From a virus: a stretch of 27,079 nucleotides of DNA. The DNA is taken from positions 84,629-111,707 of the IMG/VR virus record IMGVR_UViG_3300037963_001253; one strand, given 5' to 3'. Below, one piece after another: positions 10,606 through 27,078 of the stretch. How positions within the stretch are numbered: the first letter of the stretch is position 1; the number at the start of each line of letters is the position of its first letter. The position numbers and the translations under genes are program-made. A model generated the notes under the pieces. It saw only the letters and a list, made by a program, of their open reading frames with translations. It was not told where the DNA came from and searched no databases.

Positions 10606-10894
10606 GAAACCATACAAGCAACTCTTAGGTAATCGTATATATGTAGATGTACCTGAGAGAAAGAAGAGCAAGCTTGAGGTAGATGCTAACACTAAGGAAG
10701 CTCTGCAGAGAGAGATGCTTAAGAAGATGTCAAAACTAAAAGTATTTGATGTTGGAGAACTAGTGACTAATATAGAGCCAGGAGACGAAGTATTAATAGA
10801 CCCAGGGAAGTTAAAGGACGCACACTTGATTCCTCTTACGGATGATAAGGATGTACTATTGATATCTCCTTTTGATGTTATTCATGTTTGGTAA
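10598..10894 (+). CDS. GroES-like co-chaperonin
   Basis: The 98-residue length matches GroES (about 97) and T4 gp31 (111). The GroES pattern is visible: LGNRIYVDVPE near residues 10-20 (compare PLGDRVLVKP), a region rich in Leu and Lys in place of the mobile loop (about 22-48), then GELVTNIEPGDEVLIDPG (compare VGDRVLF) and a closing VLLISPFDVIHVW strand (compare the MREDDILAV end). It would cap the host GroEL ring and adapt it to fold phage proteins, as gp31 does for the T4 capsid protein. No GroEL gene is in the window, fitting use of the host ring. The hydrophobic GroEL-binding tripeptide of the mobile loop cannot be placed with confidence. The next gene begins on the last base of the stop codon (TAATG). 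Confidence 0.75.
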   Translation: MSKKPYKQLLGNRIYVDVPERKKSKLEVDANTKEALQREMLKKMSKLKVFDVGELVTNIEPGDEVLIDPGKLKDAHLIPLTDDKDVLLISPFDVIHVW

Positions 10895-11715
10895 TGAGCG
10901 TAGATATAATATCAGGAACAGAGGCAGCTTACACTGTGCCCAAGTGGCCAAGCCAAGAGCTGCCTTTCATTTCCTGCAAATGTATTACTTACGGAAGAAC
11001 GGATCTACTAGTTGAATCTTTATATAGTTTTCTTATACAAGACTATCCAAAAGATAAGTGCGAGCTAGTAATAGTCAATGACTATCCTCTTCAGAAATTA
11101 CACTACCCTCACCCACAAGTAAAAATATACAATCTTGATACCACCTTTCCTCTGATCGGAGAGAAAGAGAACTTTGCTATTGAAATATGTCAAGGACCTC
11201 TCATCGCTGTATGGGATGATGATGATGTAGCTATGCCCAATCACTTACAGAACATCGCTAAGTATTGGAAGGATGACACTAACATTATCCACTGGGAGAC
11301 AGGAGTATACTACAACGAACCTAACATTACACAGATAATGGGAGTTGGTAACTCAGGTATTGTATACAGCAAGGATGTTTGGGAAAGAATAGGTAAAAGC
11401 CCATTAGAGAATGCTGGTGGAGACATGACACTAACCAATAGGATACATGCCTTAGGTGGTAAAGTTGATGTCAAAATGCCAGATAGTGAAGCATCCTGGT
11501 TCTATATGTGGGGTGGTAGAGGTTATCATCAATCCGGTATGGGTACAGATACTGAAGATAGGCCGAACATTATAGAAAGACATTGCGAGTTTGTAGAACA
11601 ACAACGTAAAGCTGGTAATGTTCCTACAGGTGACATACATTTGGTTCCTCAATGGAAACATGACTATAAACAAATGTTGAAAGACTATGTTAATAAACGC
11701 AATAATAATAAATAG
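10894..11715 (+). CDS. Glycosyltransferase family 2-like protein
   Basis: This 273-residue GT-A-fold transferase uses a nucleotide-sugar donor. Visible signs: an N-terminal strand ISCKCITYGR followed by a helix (residues 26-50), LVIVND near residue 58, and a DDDD cluster at residues 108-111 (AVWDDDDV), the metal-binding DxD region of GT2 enzymes. I chose the ATG at 10894, which overlaps the GroES-like stop as TAATG; an in-frame TTG six bases earlier is less likely. It has no membrane segment, so it acts in the cytoplasm. It overlaps a second glycosyltransferase gene by 29 bases. Likely targets are phage structural proteins, host surface glycan precursors or modified DNA bases; the sequence does not say which. 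Confidence 0.88.
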   Translation: MSVDIISGTEAAYTVPKWPSQELPFISCKCITYGRTDLLVESLYSFLIQDYPKDKCELVIVNDYPLQKLHYPHPQVKIYNLDTTFPLIGEKENFAIEICQGPLIAVWDDDDVAMPNHLQNIAKYWKDDTNIIHWETGVYYNEPNITQIMGVGNSGIVYSKDVWERIGKSPLENAGGDMTLTNRIHALGGKVDVKMPDSEASWFYMWGGRGYHQSGMGTDTEDRPNIIERHCEFVEQQRKAGNVPTGDIHLVPQWKHDYKQMLKDYVNKRNNNK

Positions 11716-12714: not shown

Positions 12715-12820
12715 TAACGGGTGGAATTGGACAGGTATACTAGTGTGGGCCATGATATTCTACATAACTTGGGTGTTATGGAGATGGTTACACTACGTAT
12801 TTACCGGTCTTGTAGCTTAA
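12689..12820 (+). CDS. 43-residue single-pass membrane protein
   Basis: A short frame starts with ATG 12689, inside the 3' end of the DUF6165-like gene in another frame, and ends with TAA at 12818-12820 in the tRNA D-arm. The product has an acidic, polar head (GGDDNNG) and a strongly hydrophobic, Trp-rich segment (about residues 15-38, with IFYITWVLWRW). Such small Trp-rich membrane proteins are common in phages but no function can be named. A coding purpose is supported by the overlap with the upstream gene and the clear membrane segment; the overlap with a tRNA is the odd point. Confidence 0.55.
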   Translation: MTTTGGDDNNGWNWTGILVWAMIFYITWVLWRWLHYVFTGLVA

Positions 12821-12879
12821 CTGGATAGAGCACCTCACTACGGATGAGGAGGTTGTAGGTTCGAATCCTACCAAGATCA
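12806..12879 (+). tRNA. tRNA-Arg (anticodon ACG)
   Basis: A full 74-base cloverleaf folds. The acceptor stem is 12806-12812 with 12872-12878 (one G-U pair), the D-stem GCTT/GAGC, the anticodon stem CCTCA/TGAGG with loop CTACGGA and anticodon ACG at 12840-12842, a 5-base variable region, T-stem GTAGG/CCTAC with loop TTCGAAT, and discriminator A12879. The CCA end is not encoded and must be added by the host. ACG in bacteria is normally edited to ICG by TadA and reads CGU, CGC and CGA. Arg codons here often appear as AGA, so the benefit for CGN decoding is notable but not measured. Confidence 0.95.
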
Positions 12880-12880
12880 C

Positions 12881-20969: not shown

Positions 20970-23900
20970 ATGCCACATAGTTACGAGTTCTTTAAAGATG
21001 ATATAAAAAAATGGTTCATAACAAATGTTCCTAAACATAAGAGAATATTAGATGTAGGGCCTGGTGTGGGAACTTATTCAAACCTTTTAAGATCACATGG
21101 GTATCGTATAGATGCTGTGGAAATTTATGCACCCTATGTTCAGAAGTACGATTTAATTAACAAGTATGATAATGTATTTATAGGTGACATCTGTAAATTT
21201 GACTTCAAAGATTATGACTTTATAATTTTTGGTGATGTCATAGAACATTTACACAAAGAAGATGCCATAGAACTACACGAAAGACTAATAAAACAGAAGA
21301 AAGAGTTTCTATACGCAGTGCCTTGGATGATGGAGCAAGGGGAACATGAGGGAAATATACACGAGACACACCACCAACCAGATCTTACACCAGATGTATT
21401 ACAGGAAAGATACCCAGAAATGTATTCTTTATTTGAGAATGAATGGTATGGTTACTATGTTCATACACGTAGAAAGTTTGAGAAAGCATATGTTATGTAT
21501 GCTAGCAATGCTTACTATGATACAGTATGTGCAGCTGTAGAGTCTATCAATCTAGTAAGTAGGATACCAGTCATAGTATACCTATTAAATGATAACAGAA
21601 AAGTTCCTAAAGCAGTTACAGTAAAGTGGGAATACGAAGGTCATGATGTAAGACAAAGTGATTATATAAATCGTAATGACAGTAGAGTGTATGATCTGTT
21701 AATACAAAGACCTTGTGTTGTAAAACATGCATTGAATAACTATGCAAAGACTGTAGCTTATATAGACTCTGATAGTGTAGTGACTAAGTATATAGATAGA
21801 ATATTTAAGTACATGCCAGAGGACTCAACACACCCATATTTTACAGAAGGTATATATGATTATCTATTTATAAATGGTAGAGGTGGAGTAGAAACTAGAG
21901 ATGAAATGCATAAAAGTTTAGAGCATCCAGCTTGTGAATTATTTGGTGTAGACCAGCTAGTTCGCTCGAAATACCGCCAAACTGGCTATTTTGTAGCAGG
22001 ACAGCAGTGTTTTGATTTCCTAGATGAGTGGGAGTGGATGTGTAATCATCCTAAGGTAAAAGCAAATCCACAGTACTATGCACCTTACCATGAAGAGACG
22101 TTAGTGAATGTATTGTTGTGGAAGTATAATATCCACGAAGGACTTCCTTACATGTATCTAAACTATAACAAGTTTGTAAATATTGATGAACTTCCTTTTG
22201 ATGGTACAGATCGATACTTAGAGGAGTGGGTTAGACTACCTAAAAAGAAAGAAGAACTGCTTGTATTTCATGGAGAGAAAAGACCAGAGTATATGCGTGC
22301 TACAATGTATGCACAAAAGAAACGGATATTATTTGTAGCTCCTCACTTATCTACAGGAGGTATGCCTGCATTTTTATTAAAAAGAATAGAAGCTCTAAAG
22401 AATGATTACGACATATATGTAGTAGAATTTAATAACTATAGTAATGAATATGTAGTTCAAAAGAACAGGATAAAAGAAATAGTAGAAGAATTCTATACAC
22501 TAGATGAAAACAAACGTGAACTAATAGATATTGTTAGAGATAAAAGAATTGATATTGTGCATATAGATGAGATGTCAGAAGACATGGGTCATGATGATGT
22601 AATGAATGAGTTGTACTGTAACTGTAGATCATACAGAATCATAGAGACTTGTCACAATATATCATTCACTCCGTCAACCAAGAAGTTTCATCCGGACGCA
22701 TATGCATTTTGTACACCTTATCACTTAGAAACATTTGAAGATACACCTAGTCCTGTAAAAGAAGTAATAGAGTTTCCTATAGAGAAGAAGGAACGTAACA
22801 GAAGAGAAGCTCTTAACACTCTAGGACTAGATCCAACTAAGTCACATGTAGTAAATATAGGATTGTGGACTAGAGGTAAGAATCAAGGAGAAGGATTATC
22901 TATGGCTAGAAAGCTCCCACATGTAGAGTTTCATTTTATAGGTAACCAGGCTGGTAATTTTAAAGAGTATTGGGAGCCACTTATGAAAGATGTTCCTGAT
23001 AATGTTAGAGTATGGGGCGAGAGGTCTGATACTGATTTGTTTTTACAAGCAGCTGATGTCTTTATGTTCAACTCTACTTGGGAGTGTAATCCTCTTGTAT
23101 TAAGAGAGGCTATAAGTCATGGTCTACCTATACTTGCTAGAAACCTACCTCAATATAAAGATATGTTTACTAAGTATATGGTTGACTTTGATCCTATGAA
23201 AGGAAAGAATCAGTTATCTAAGTTACTTAGAGAAGGATATAACTATGAAGTTCCAACTGATAATACTTTAGAACACTTTAGACAGAATCATATTAATCTT
23301 TATACACAAGTTTTAGATAAACCAAAGTATAAAAACAAACCTGTAAAAGATTATACTATAACACAAAGCTTTGTTAATGGACCCTTCCTAGAAATAAAAG
23401 GTACTAGTGATAGTCATTTTCTTGTAGAGTTCTATGATGGAGATAAACTGATATATAGTAATCTTATAAAGTGTGGGCACTGGGTAAGATTAGATAGACA
23501 ATACTATACTGCTTGGAGAACAGTGGTATACAAGGATGATGTTCTAGTGATGGACGAGTGGATGGACTTAAAAGATAAGAATGTCCTTATAAGTATGGAG
23601 AGTTCTGCACTAGGAGATACAATTGCATGGATAGAGTATGTGTTACAATTTCAATTTGTACACGCCTGCCGTGTTACAATTAGCACTTTCAAGAACTTTT
23701 TATTTGAAGAAGTTTATCCAGAGCTTAAGTTTGTAGAACCAGGAACAGTAGTTAGTAATTTATATGCTCAGTATAATATAGGATGGTTTGAAAATAAAAA
23801 CAAGGAACCAGAACCACCTAAAACTATACCCTTACAAAAAACAGCTACTAATATTTTAGGACTTGAATTTAAAGAAATAAGACCTAGAATTAAATCTAAC

Positions 23901-24419
23901 TTCGGAAATAAATTTAATGGAAGATATGTAACTATCGCTACTAACTCTACGGCTGGTTGTAAGTTCTGGACAAGAGAAGGATGGCAGGAAGTTATAAACT
24001 ATTTACATAGTCAAGGGTATACAATTATAAATACTTCCAAAGAAGACAATCCTTTTGACAATTGTGAGAAGATATTAGATACCTCTATAGAATATACAAT
24101 TGATTGTATAAGACAAAGTGCATTCTTTATAGGACTATCTAGCGGATTAAGTTGGTTAGCATGGGCCCTACAAGTCCCAGTTGTTATGATATCTAACTTT
24201 AGTGAAGAGGGTCATGAGTTTTCATGTCATAGAGTAACCAACACAAATGTATGCCACGGTTGTTGGAATGATCTAAAGTATACTTTTGATAAAGGGGATT
24301 GGGATTGGTGTCCTGAACACAAAGGAACAGATAGACAATTTGAATGTCATAAATCAATCACTGCAGAAGATGTTATAAAAGCTTTACCTATTCAGAGCAA
24401 CCTATCCAGCTACAGCTAG
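20970..24419 (+). CDS. Multidomain methyltransferase-glycosyltransferase ending in a TibC-like heptosyltransferase domain
   Basis: The 1149-residue protein appears to contain four domains. (1) A class I SAM methyltransferase, about 20-165: DVGPGVG at residues 28-34, acidic E51 after a strand, and DVIEHL at 89-94. (2) A GT-A glycosyltransferase, about 171-440, with the D266-S-D268 motif. (3) A GT-B glycosyltransferase, about 449-785, opening with RILFVAPHLSTGG and holding the E705-x7-E713 donor motif. (4) A C-terminal domain, about 790-1145, matching the autotransporter O-heptosyltransferase (TibC/BAHT) pattern: YTITQSFVNGPFLEI, ALGDTIAWIEYV, GLSSGLSWLAWALQVPVVMI, then C1095-x2-C1098-x15-C1114-x11-C1126, resembling the iron-binding Cys cluster of TibC. 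TibC adds heptose to Ser of adhesin repeats. It is convergent with, and overlaps by 32 bases, the fibre gene, a possible acceptor. Confidence 0.88.
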   Translation: MPHSYEFFKDDIKKWFITNVPKHKRILDVGPGVGTYSNLLRSHGYRIDAVEIYAPYVQKYDLINKYDNVFIGDICKFDFKDYDFIIFGDVIEHLHKEDAIELHERLIKQKKEFLYAVPWMMEQGEHEGNIHETHHQPDLTPDVLQERYPEMYSLFENEWYGYYVHTRRKFEKAYVMYASNAYYDTVCAAVESINLVSRIPVIVYLLNDNRKVPKAVTVKWEYEGHDVRQSDYINRNDSRVYDLLIQRPCVVKHALNNYAKTVAYIDSDSVVTKYIDRIFKYMPEDSTHPYFTEGIYDYLFINGRGGVETRDEMHKSLEHPACELFGVDQLVRSKYRQTGYFVAGQQCFDFLDEWEWMCNHPKVKANPQYYAPYHEETLVNVLLWKYNIHEGLPYMYLNYNKFVNIDELPFDGTDRYLEEWVRLPKKKEELLVFHGEKRPEYMRATMYAQKKRILFVAPHLSTGGMPAFLLKRIEALKNDYDIYVVEFNNYSNEYVVQKNRIKEIVEEFYTLDENKRELIDIVRDKRIDIVHIDEMSEDMGHDDVMNELYCNCRSYRIIETCHNISFTPSTKKFHPDAYAFCTPYHLETFEDTPSPVKEVIEFPIEKKERNRREALNTLGLDPTKSHVVNIGLWTRGKNQGEGLSMARKLPHVEFHFIGNQAGNFKEYWEPLMKDVPDNVRVWGERSDTDLFLQAADVFMFNSTWECNPLVLREAISHGLPILARNLPQYKDMFTKYMVDFDPMKGKNQLSKLLREGYNYEVPTDNTLEHFRQNHINLYTQVLDKPKYKNKPVKDYTITQSFVNGPFLEIKGTSDSHFLVEFYDGDKLIYSNLIKCGHWVRLDRQYYTAWRTVVYKDDVLVMDEWMDLKDKNVLISMESSALGDTIAWIEYVLQFQFVHACRVTISTFKNFLFEEVYPELKFVEPGTVVSNLYAQYNIGWFENKNKEPEPPKTIPLQKTATNILGLEFKEIRPRIKSNFGNKFNGRYVTIATNSTAGCKFWTREGWQEVINYLHSQGYTIINTSKEDNPFDNCEKILDTSIEYTIDCIRQSAFFIGLSSGLSWLAWALQVPVVMISNFSEEGHEFSCHRVTNTNVCHGCWNDLKYTFDKGDWDWCPEHKGTDRQFECHKSITAEDVIKALPIQSNLSSYS

Positions 24420-27078
24420 GTGCTATCGATGAATTAGAGAAACGACCAGTAAATGTTCCTGTACTTTGTGATAATATCTCACCACAATAAGTTGCACCAC
24501 TACAGTTAGTAGATAATTGGAATTGTGCAATATCACCTACACTAAATGTTCCTCCAGGTATAATTGCTGCACTACCAAAGTCACAGTAAATAGTTGCATC
24601 TATATAGAACTGTTGACTATCATCACATCTTTCAACTAACCATCTTAAACCTTGAGATCCAGGATTAGAACGAGAAGTTGAAGTAGTTGTAGTAGGAGGA
24701 TTACCAGCTCCACATTCACCAATTCTTATTTTTAAAACTCCAGCAGTGTGATATAAACCATATAATGGTATACCAGCTTGTGCAGCTGCACAGTCACTAC
24801 CATAGTTATGGTGCTCTCCTACCTCTGGCATGATGATACAACTCTCTACATTACTTACATTACCTACGTTTGGAATATTATTAATAGTTCCTTTTTCTGT
24901 GATAAGTAAAGCATTTTTCCTATTGTTAGTATTGTTTGCAGAACCAGCTCCTACCATAAATACAGTAGGAATATTTCTACCGTAAGTGTAGTTAGTATTT
25001 TGGTAATCATTAAACTGACCATAAACACCTATAGTGTCTGAAGTGGTAGTTGTATTACTACCATTTACTGTTGTATCAGAAAGAGCTTGTAAGGTACGTC
25101 CACAAACTATAGACTCATTCTTATAGTTTTTAGCTTGATAACCTAGAGCCCCTGATCTATATCTTACTGCACTACTAGTTCCAATATTATTTTGACTACC
25201 GAAAGTAAAACTACAACCTACACTAGTTCCACTGTATACATAGTTACCCCCTCCTACATTTATAGTAAAGTCACCAGCAATACCAGAATTTTGTCCAACA
25301 AGTATACTAGATTTACTTCGACTTGTACTTAAAAATCTAAGATTGTTACCAATTCCAAGAACGTTTTGTGTTTGTCCACTAGCAAATTGAGTTTGGACAC
25401 CAGTTCCTGCTATTATTGAATTAATTAATGCAGAAGATCCGTTAGAACTACTTGATAGAGTATTATTTTGTCCTGCAATAATATTATAATTACTACCTTG
25501 ATAAATATCATTACTATATCCTCCAACCAGATTACCCTTAGCTCCACTGAATGCTATATTGGATCCACTATTTAATGTGTTCTGTTCTCCAACTACAAGA
25601 TTTAATCTAGCATTTTTCAGAACATTAGCATAACCACCTACTATATTAGAATCATTATCACCATTACTATCTCTATAGAATGTATTATTAGTTCCAACAA
25701 CTAAACTCTGGTTAGTATTAAATTCAGCTAAAGCACCTGATGTACTTTTACCATGGTCTCCACCACCAACAATATTATTGATTCCATTCAGGAAGTTACG
25801 AGTAGATCCAACAGTTCCTCCATGTTCATGTCCTACTACTAAACTATAGTCCATGTTTATGTTGGACTTACTTGCAGATACTATATTATAATCTGCTCTT
25901 ATAGTAACTCCTGAATTATTATTATCACCTATCTTGTTTTGGAAACCAGTTATGAATCCTCCTTGCATTGCTGCAGCGTTTGGTATAGTATTTTGATTTC
26001 CTGCTATAACAGAGTATTTTATATTATTACCTATAACATTGTCTCTACCTGTTACGAATACAGCTTGAGGAGTTGTACTTGAGGAACTATCACCTAGTGT
26101 ATTATTCCAACCAACTACAACTGCACCATATGTATTAGAATTACTACCACTTTTTTGTATTATATTGCTAAATCCTCCAACTTCTGCATTATTTACATTA
26201 GTAAGAGTATTACTAGCACCCCACATAAAGTTGTTGTTACCATCGATAGATTGTCCACTTCCAGCTACAAGAACATTAATTGCATCTCCACCTGTTTGAT
26301 GACTTATCCCTGATACATTAGATCTTATCAGTTTCTTACTTATGTTATTATTTTGTCCTGAAAGAATAGAGTTAATAACTGTACCGGTCGCAGGACTGGT
26401 CTTATTAACAGTGTTAGTTGTACCTACTACAAGAGAAGCTGTGTTTACAAAACCAGAAACTGTACCAGTAACCAGGTTACCTTGTCCTACTATAAGCATT
26501 TTATCTCCTGTAAGATTATTATTAAATCCAACAATAGATAAGTTACTTGATAATGCATCTCCGATCTCATTCTCACTACCACAAATCATGGCAGAACCAT
26601 CATAAGTTGTAGCATATATATTAGCTACATATGTAGTCTCATCTTCATAAGGAGATACTTCAAGTCTTGGAACAACTCTAGTTACATAGTGTGTACCATT
26701 ACTTGGTTGTGTGATTCTTATACCCTCAGTTATATATGTATAGTTTGTATTTGTATAAGTTGCACCTATCTTGATTAGATCATTGTTAGCTACATTCAGT
26801 GCAAATATTGCATTAGTTAGAGTGTTTTGAGTAGGCTTGACGGTCATATCACCACTCACCTCTAATGTATTTCCAGGACCACTTCCTACCCCTATACCTA
26901 AACGTGAACTAGTATCGTCCCAATAGAAGTTAGAATTTCCAGCTATTACTGTTGTTGACTGGCCTTTAACTCCTGACCAGAATGCAACCTCTCCATCTGC
27001 AATACCAGAACCACTAACTTGACTAGCAGGTGTTGTACCACTCGAACCTGATGAGCCAGAAGTACCCGATGTAGCTGA
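24388..27078 (-). CDS. Tail-fibre-type protein with YadA-head-like beta-roll (5' part outside window)
   Basis: The frame is open to the right edge, so at least 897 codons are visible; the GTG at 26859 is not a needed start. Just inside the edge are collagen-like Gly-x-y repeats (SGTSGSSGSSG), then WSGVKGQS and WDDTSSRLGIGVGSGPGNTL, typical of fibre modules. The middle holds some 25 or more short repeats with the pattern x-(V/I/L)-x-G-x-x-N-x-(I/L/V), as in SIVGFNNNL, LVVGTNNTF and NIIAGQNNTL, predicting a trimeric left-handed beta-roll like the YadA head. Then comes a Thr/Ser hinge (PPTTTTSTSRS) and a Cys-rich C-terminal domain ending SWIGCSE. The repeats are Asn/Ser/Thr/Gly-rich. It likely forms the receptor-binding fibre and may be glycosylated by the neighbouring transferase. 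Confidence 0.82.
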   Translation of the reverse strand, partial: SATSGTSGSSGSSGTTPASQVSGSGIADGEVAFWSGVKGQSTTVIAGNSNFYWDDTSSRLGIGVGSGPGNTLEVSGDMTVKPTQNTLTNAIFALNVANNDLIKIGATYTNTNYTYITEGIRITQPSNGTHYVTRVVPRLEVSPYEDETTYVANIYATTYDGSAMICGSENEIGDALSSNLSIVGFNNNLTGDKMLIVGQGNLVTGTVSGFVNTASLVVGTTNTVNKTSPATGTVINSILSGQNNNISKKLIRSNVSGISHQTGGDAINVLVAGSGQSIDGNNNFMWGASNTLTNVNNAEVGGFSNIIQKSGSNSNTYGAVVVGWNNTLGDSSSSTTPQAVFVTGRDNVIGNNIKYSVIAGNQNTIPNAAAMQGGFITGFQNKIGDNNNSGVTIRADYNIVSASKSNINMDYSLVVGHEHGGTVGSTRNFLNGINNIVGGGDHGKSTSGALAEFNTNQSLVVGTNNTFYRDSNGDNDSNIVGGYANVLKNARLNLVVGEQNTLNSGSNIAFSGAKGNLVGGYSNDIYQGSNYNIIAGQNNTLSSSSNGSSALINSIIAGTGVQTQFASGQTQNVLGIGNNLRFLSTSRSKSSILVGQNSGIAGDFTINVGGGNYVYSGTSVGCSFTFGSQNNIGTSSAVRYRSGALGYQAKNYKNESIVCGRTLQALSDTTVNGSNTTTTSDTIGVYGQFNDYQNTNYTYGRNIPTVFMVGAGSANNTNNRKNALLITEKGTINNIPNVGNVSNVESCIIMPEVGEHHNYGSDCAAAQAGIPLYGLYHTAGVLKIRIGECGAGNPPTTTTSTSRSNPGSQGLRWLVERCDDSQQFYIDATIYCDFGSAAIIPGGTFSVGDIAQFQLSTNCSGATYCGEILSQSTGTFTGRFSNSSIAPSCSWIGCSE

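Follow-up and report, generated by a model that had tools for sequence, protein, structure and literature searches.

What does a phage-encoded glycosyltransferase act upon when it lies end to end with a fibre gene? The question is raised by a stretch of 27,079 nucleotides (the window) covering positions 84,629 to 111,707 of the IMG/VR virus record IMGVR_UViG_3300037963_001253, which is 111,707 bp long; the window takes up its final 27 kb and ends where the record ends. Here an open reading frame (ORF) for a four-domain enzyme of 1149 amino acids (20970..24419, plus strand) and a fibre ORF (24388..27078, minus strand) meet tail to tail with an overlap of 32 bp. The initial annotation proposed that the two form a self-glycosylation pair, in which a TibC-like transferase sugars the beta-roll of an adhesin-like fibre. 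We find that the pair is real, but that the likely acceptor moves from the beta-roll to a collagen-like shaft: the enzyme is probably a fibre-dedicated protein O-glycosyltransferase acting on a proline-poor shaft, in which sugars would do the stabilising in place of proline.

The C-terminal domain of the enzyme (about residues 795-1139; 23352..24386, plus strand) comprises a beta-barrel and a GT-B catalytic core. It finds TibC in the PDB at 7.9e-56 by sequence search, and the enzyme matches family TIGR04414 with 278.2 bits (9.8e-83), the curated equivalog cut-off being 200. The N-terminal beta-barrel and the GT-B core of the TibC fold are both present in the predicted model of the domain, whose top Foldseek match is again TibC (template modelling score, TM, of 0.82 over the target, E 4e-26). 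The hallmarks of TibC and the bacterial autotransporter heptosyltransferases (BAHTs) that had been read from the letters are thereby confirmed. Residues D883, T994, K998, and W1062 correspond to D110, the catalytic base of TibC, and to its ligand residues T226, K230, and W305 (PMC4358343), and all four are invariant in 28 relatives. The four cysteines of the iron-finger motif, C1095-x2-C1098-x15-C1114-x11-C1126 (24252..24347, plus strand), had been described exactly; as a sequence motif, their spacing is identical to that of C339/C342/C358/C370 in TibC, and they do not vary among the 28 relatives; of 32 alignable matches on other phage contigs, 31 retain them. In one TibC-like domain (L339 in locus L491, genome G023) all four iron-finger cysteines are gone while the catalytic Asp, Thr, Lys, and Trp are kept. 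The position of TibC P300 is occupied by Ser, as it also is in AAH. By sequence and predicted fold the domain is TibC-like, yet we do not class it as an autotransporter heptosyltransferase, because TibC R286 is replaced by Thr (T1043) and because the partner gene encodes a collagen-like phage fibre instead of an autotransporter.

Three further domains precede it, and the proposed fusion of methyltransferase, GT-A, GT-B, and TibC-like parts is backed by searches against Pfam, NCBIfam, and PDB as well as by AlphaFold2 and Foldseek. The class I S-adenosylmethionine-dependent methyltransferase domain (about residues 1-165; 20970..21464, plus strand) matches Methyltransf_23 at 5.3e-8 and PDB entry 3cc8 at 6.5e-7. 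The GT-A domain (residues 168-447; 21471..22310, plus strand) is modelled with confidence (pLDDT 91.1, pTM 0.90), its best Foldseek matches being GT6 alpha-1,3-galactosyltransferases and the catalytic domain of UGGT (E 5e-8, TM ~0.5), and its DxD motif (D266-x-D268) is invariant across 28 sequences. The GT4-type GT-B domain (about residues 450-790; 22317..23339, plus strand) matches Glycos_transf_1 at 5.7e-10, resembles BshA, MshA, PimB', and PglA in structure, and has an E-x7-E motif (E705, E713) that is invariant in the alignment of relatives. Numerous independent metagenomic contigs encode fusions with this domain order, 49-71% identical to the enzyme, which rules out an assembly error as the source of the fusion. 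Some relatives start near residue 163-169 and lack the methyltransferase, and others also lack the GT-A domain; the common core in other phages is GT4 plus TibC, with variable N-terminal additions such as an FkbM methyltransferase. In the group of relatives represented by L034:9710-13396 the N-terminal domain does not align with the methyltransferase of the window and, by eye, looks like an FkbM-type methyltransferase. A GT4-TibC fusion at L497:1175-5311 contains, inside its GT4 portion, matches to intein-type splicing and LAGLIDADG domains. Among bacterial genomes, a search for the same architecture returned a single partial match, in a contig of a Bacteroidetes metagenome-assembled genome.

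The neighbouring gene product was described as an Asn/Ser/Gly/Thr-rich fibre with 25 or more short repeats and a Thr/Ser hinge. This description holds (47% of residues are N, S, G, or T; 31 loose G-x(1-4)-N-[NTDVIEKS]-[IVLFM] motifs were counted against 7.5 +/- 3.0 in 500 shuffles; the hinge TTTTSTS lies at residues 796-802, 24673..24693, minus strand), except that it covers only the C-terminal 896 amino acids of the fibre. The window ORF (P0002), with a beta-roll-like head region at about residues 150-690 (25009..26631, minus strand), is open at the contig end and begins with the residues SATSGTSGSSGSSGTT, a stub of the Gly-Thr-Ser/Gly-Ser-Ser collagen-like repeat (27031..27066, minus strand). 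The N-terminal 1572 amino acids are encoded at the opposite contig end (G000:C1:1-4716, L076, minus strand), so the fibre gene leaves the contig at its start and continues at its end, inside the window, with the break inside the repeat, as would be expected of a circular or permuted genome broken there. This N-terminal part holds 336 Gly-X-Y triplets (GTS 165, GSS 69, GTT 30), with Ser or Thr at 84% of the X/Y positions, Pro in six triplets, and Lys or Arg in one; Pfam Collagen (PF01391) matches it in 15 stretches (E 2.8e-136). Gly, Thr, and Ser are each encoded by a mixture of codons, and the pattern is therefore kept at the protein level. Fibre homologues adjoining the enzyme in relatives have 1261-3330 amino acids, some being cut by contig ends, and up to 782 triplets; their C-terminal heads differ (e.g., L004) while the Gly-Thr-Ser shaft stays. 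A plain sequence search of annotated phages and the PDB gave no usable match for the fibre. Contigs often break at the Gly-Thr-Ser repeat, with further repeats at contig ends in relatives G123, G125, G127, and G133, and such fibres are consequently truncated or missed in databases.

The suggestion that the pair is linked in related phages stands, with the collagen as the partner. In 31 loci the sequence extends 8 kb or more downstream of the enzyme, and 27 of them have Gly-[STA]-[STA] runs there; the linkage persists after clustering at 90% (20 of 23 loci) and at 70% (10 of 12); in 48 loci, all downstream runs are opposite in strand to the enzyme. To look at the link the other way round, contigs 25 kb or longer were picked by a DNA pattern for Gly-Thr-Ser, for Gly-Pro-Gln, or by a random 15-mer. 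TIGR04414 was present in 23 of 49 Gly-Thr-Ser contigs, compared with 2 of 41 Gly-Pro-Gln contigs (Fisher, 4.8e-6) and 2 of 31 random ones (1.3e-4). Of the 24 TibC places examined in the Gly-Thr-Ser set, 14 have the repeat no further than 10 kb away, with three arrangements among them, and in each control set one of the two positives is also near a repeat (L498, L501). The enzyme thus goes with the proline-poor, Ser/Thr-rich kind of collagen and not with the proline-rich kind.

The two genes also co-segregate within a clade of near-identical capsids. The comparison covers 24 contigs, each 60 kb or longer, with a capsid protein that shares at least 89% identity with the one of the phage. Five carry the enzyme, all with the repeat; four carry the repeat only, in each case at a contig end where the neighbour is cut off; and 15, including seven of about 100-115 kb, have neither gene. 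Among the complete-size genomes, three have both and seven neither. The corresponding p-values, 0.003 for all 24 and 0.008 for the complete-size genomes, are indicative only, as the contigs are not independent draws. In the four pair-less genomes inspected (G134, G139, G140, and G143) the corresponding island has short fibre-like genes instead. We also noticed that the fibre island of G142 (L592:5919-8488) has genes for a sulfotransferase, an adenosine 5'-phosphosulfate (APS) kinase, and a cytidylyltransferase-like protein, with similar genes at L585 and L590/L591; these crAss-like islands possibly hold a phage sulfation cassette.

Outside this group, the cultivated Microcystis cyanophage Mel-JY01 (PP395634.1, 190 kb) encodes a 1226-residue protein in which GT4 and TibC-like domains are joined (its annotation reads 'methyltransferase FkbM'), with Gly-Ser-Ser/Gly-Thr-Ser/Gly-Thr-Arg collagen-like repeats no more than 3 kb from the gene. 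These repeats are read from the plus strand (L593:1-2298), whereas the hypothetical proteins annotated there are placed on the minus strand, and the fibre gene looks mis-annotated. A 735-kb uncultured phage has the repeat about 5 kb from its TibC domain, and a 636-kb phage has a TibC domain with no repeat within 12 kb. The gene order of the pair differs in these unrelated phages. A search of the accessible literature for phage enzymes of the TibC type, or for phage collagens made of Gly-Thr-Ser, returned nothing relevant.

Because the enzyme accompanies proline-poor, Ser/Thr-rich collagen and not the proline-rich kind, O-glycosylation of the shaft is the simplest account. The residue that TibC modifies in repetitive adhesins is Ser and not Thr, and BAHT genes usually adjoin the gene of their substrate (PMC4358343); glycosylation of Thr is an alternative stabiliser of collagen, while a proline-rich phage collagen is stable unglycosylated (PMC3368898), and sugar on collagen-like repeats has been proposed as stabilising (PMC8968730). 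The enzyme would act in the host cell, before assembly, with the TibC-like domain adding the first sugar to Ser, and perhaps Thr, of the Gly-Thr-Ser/Gly-Ser-Ser shaft, the GT4 and GT-A domains lengthening the glycan, and the methyltransferase possibly capping it. Sugars would then do the stabilising that other collagens owe to proline or hydroxyproline, and the outcome would be a long, hydrated, probably protease-resistant fibre with interchangeable C-terminal heads. As for a wider claim, that a TibC-type enzyme stabilises and shields a near-proline-free Gly-Thr-Ser collagen as a widespread modular phage strategy, with crAss-like phages, cyanophages, and huge phages exchanging the two genes together, we find the case for and the case against evenly balanced.

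Several observations weigh against this account of the shaft. Thr stands at half of the X/Y positions, whereas TibC used Ser and not Thr, and Ala sometimes stands for Gly, so that an unbroken triple helix is not certain. The repeat is missing from four distant relatives with enough flank, and 26 of the 49 Gly-Thr-Ser contigs, many of them fragments, have no TibC-like domain. An ADP-sugar donor is doubtful because TibC R286, which contacts the adenine of ADP-heptose (PMC4358343), is Thr in the enzyme; among the 28 relatives Thr occupies the position in 27 and Val in one, and Arg is found there in 10 of the 32 matches from other phages. With this replacement, and no HldE-type nucleotidyltransferase found in the phage contig as a source of the donor, heptose is not established as the sugar.

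The acceptor originally named, the beta-roll head, is a natural candidate, since its repeats are real and TibC and AAH act on repetitive passenger domains in the manner of BAHTs on beta-helical adhesins. Its homologue, however, occurs in only one (L001) of 74 enzyme-bearing relatives, which rejects the beta-roll as the conserved partner; the heads vary while the Gly-Thr-Ser shaft is the nearly constant partner, and we consider modification of the head quite unlikely and this part of the initial annotation probably wrong. The enzyme might instead target a surface polysaccharide of the host, for superinfection exclusion or receptor change, or the DNA of the phage, its adjacency to the fibre reflecting a shared variable island; phage glycosyltransferases of both kinds are known, and other modifying enzymes also sit in the fibre island of relatives. 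We regard such a target as unlikely, as TIGR04414 is a family of protein O-glycosyltransferases, and the association is specific to collagen rich in Ser and Thr, as opposed to the proline type, and is seen again in unrelated phages whose genes are ordered differently.

The association might also be a by-product of kinship or of a shared host group, devoid of any functional link; many of the loci come from related crAss-like phages, and the contigs are phylogenetically non-independent. That the pair is jointly present or absent among nearly identical capsids, and that a cyanophage and a huge phage have it too, makes this explanation very improbable.

The phage itself is assigned to the Crassvirales, as its major capsid protein is matched by Crass_capsid (Pfam) at 2.3e-31 and its portal and terminase match PHROGs phrog_6547 and phrog_6681. 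The structural genes form a long minus-strand run of terminase, portal, capsid, and very large proteins, with the fibre gene last. Elsewhere in the window are a GT2-family glycosyltransferase gene of 275 amino acids (10888-11712, plus strand) and a tRNA-Arg (acg; 12806-12880, plus strand) at the point where the two gene strands turn. A nucleotide-sugar epimerase (phrog_540; G000:C1:81318-82190, equal to L080:5318-6190), encoded about 2.4 kb ahead of the window, might provide a donor sugar.

These results link the virion fibres of diverse phages to a family of enzymes described for virulence adhesins of bacteria, name Ser/Thr of the collagen-like shaft as the likely acceptor, and offer a testable answer to how a collagen almost without proline could be kept stable; the same pair in cultivated Mel-JY01 makes direct testing possible. 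If the proposal is true, sugar replaces proline in this collagen, and the occurrence of the pair in unrelated phages suggests that virus particles bear collagen stabilised by sugar.

With TibC and AAH (TIGR04414) the pair shares the sequence, fold, catalytic Asp/Thr/Lys/Trp, and iron-finger cysteines of the C-terminal domain as well as a gene adjoining that of a repetitive surface-type protein; unlike them, the phage enzyme is fused to GT4, GT-A, and methyltransferase domains, has Thr for the adenine-contacting Arg, and is partnered by a collagen-like fibre and not an autotransporter. So large a fusion may change the dodecamer assembly known for the family. Mycobacteriophages, in the work of Freeman et al. 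2023 as cited in PMC12619734, likewise encode enzymes proposed to glycosylate their own structural proteins; the targets given there are the C-termini of capsid and tail tube proteins, whereas the present case would involve an enzyme of the TibC type and, as its target, a collagen-like fibre. BclA and mimivirus collagen (PMC8968730) share sugar on collagen-like repeats, predicted in the present case, and a proposed stabilisation, but BclA is a bacterial spore protein, mimivirus employs hydroxylysine and a PLOD-like enzyme, and neither uses a TibC-type enzyme. EPclA-type phage-derived fibres (PMC3368898) also contain a collagen-like segment; theirs is made of proline-rich GPK/GPQ triplets and is stable without sugar, whereas the present shaft is proline-poor and Ser/Thr-rich, runs to hundreds of triplets, and comes with an enzyme partner.
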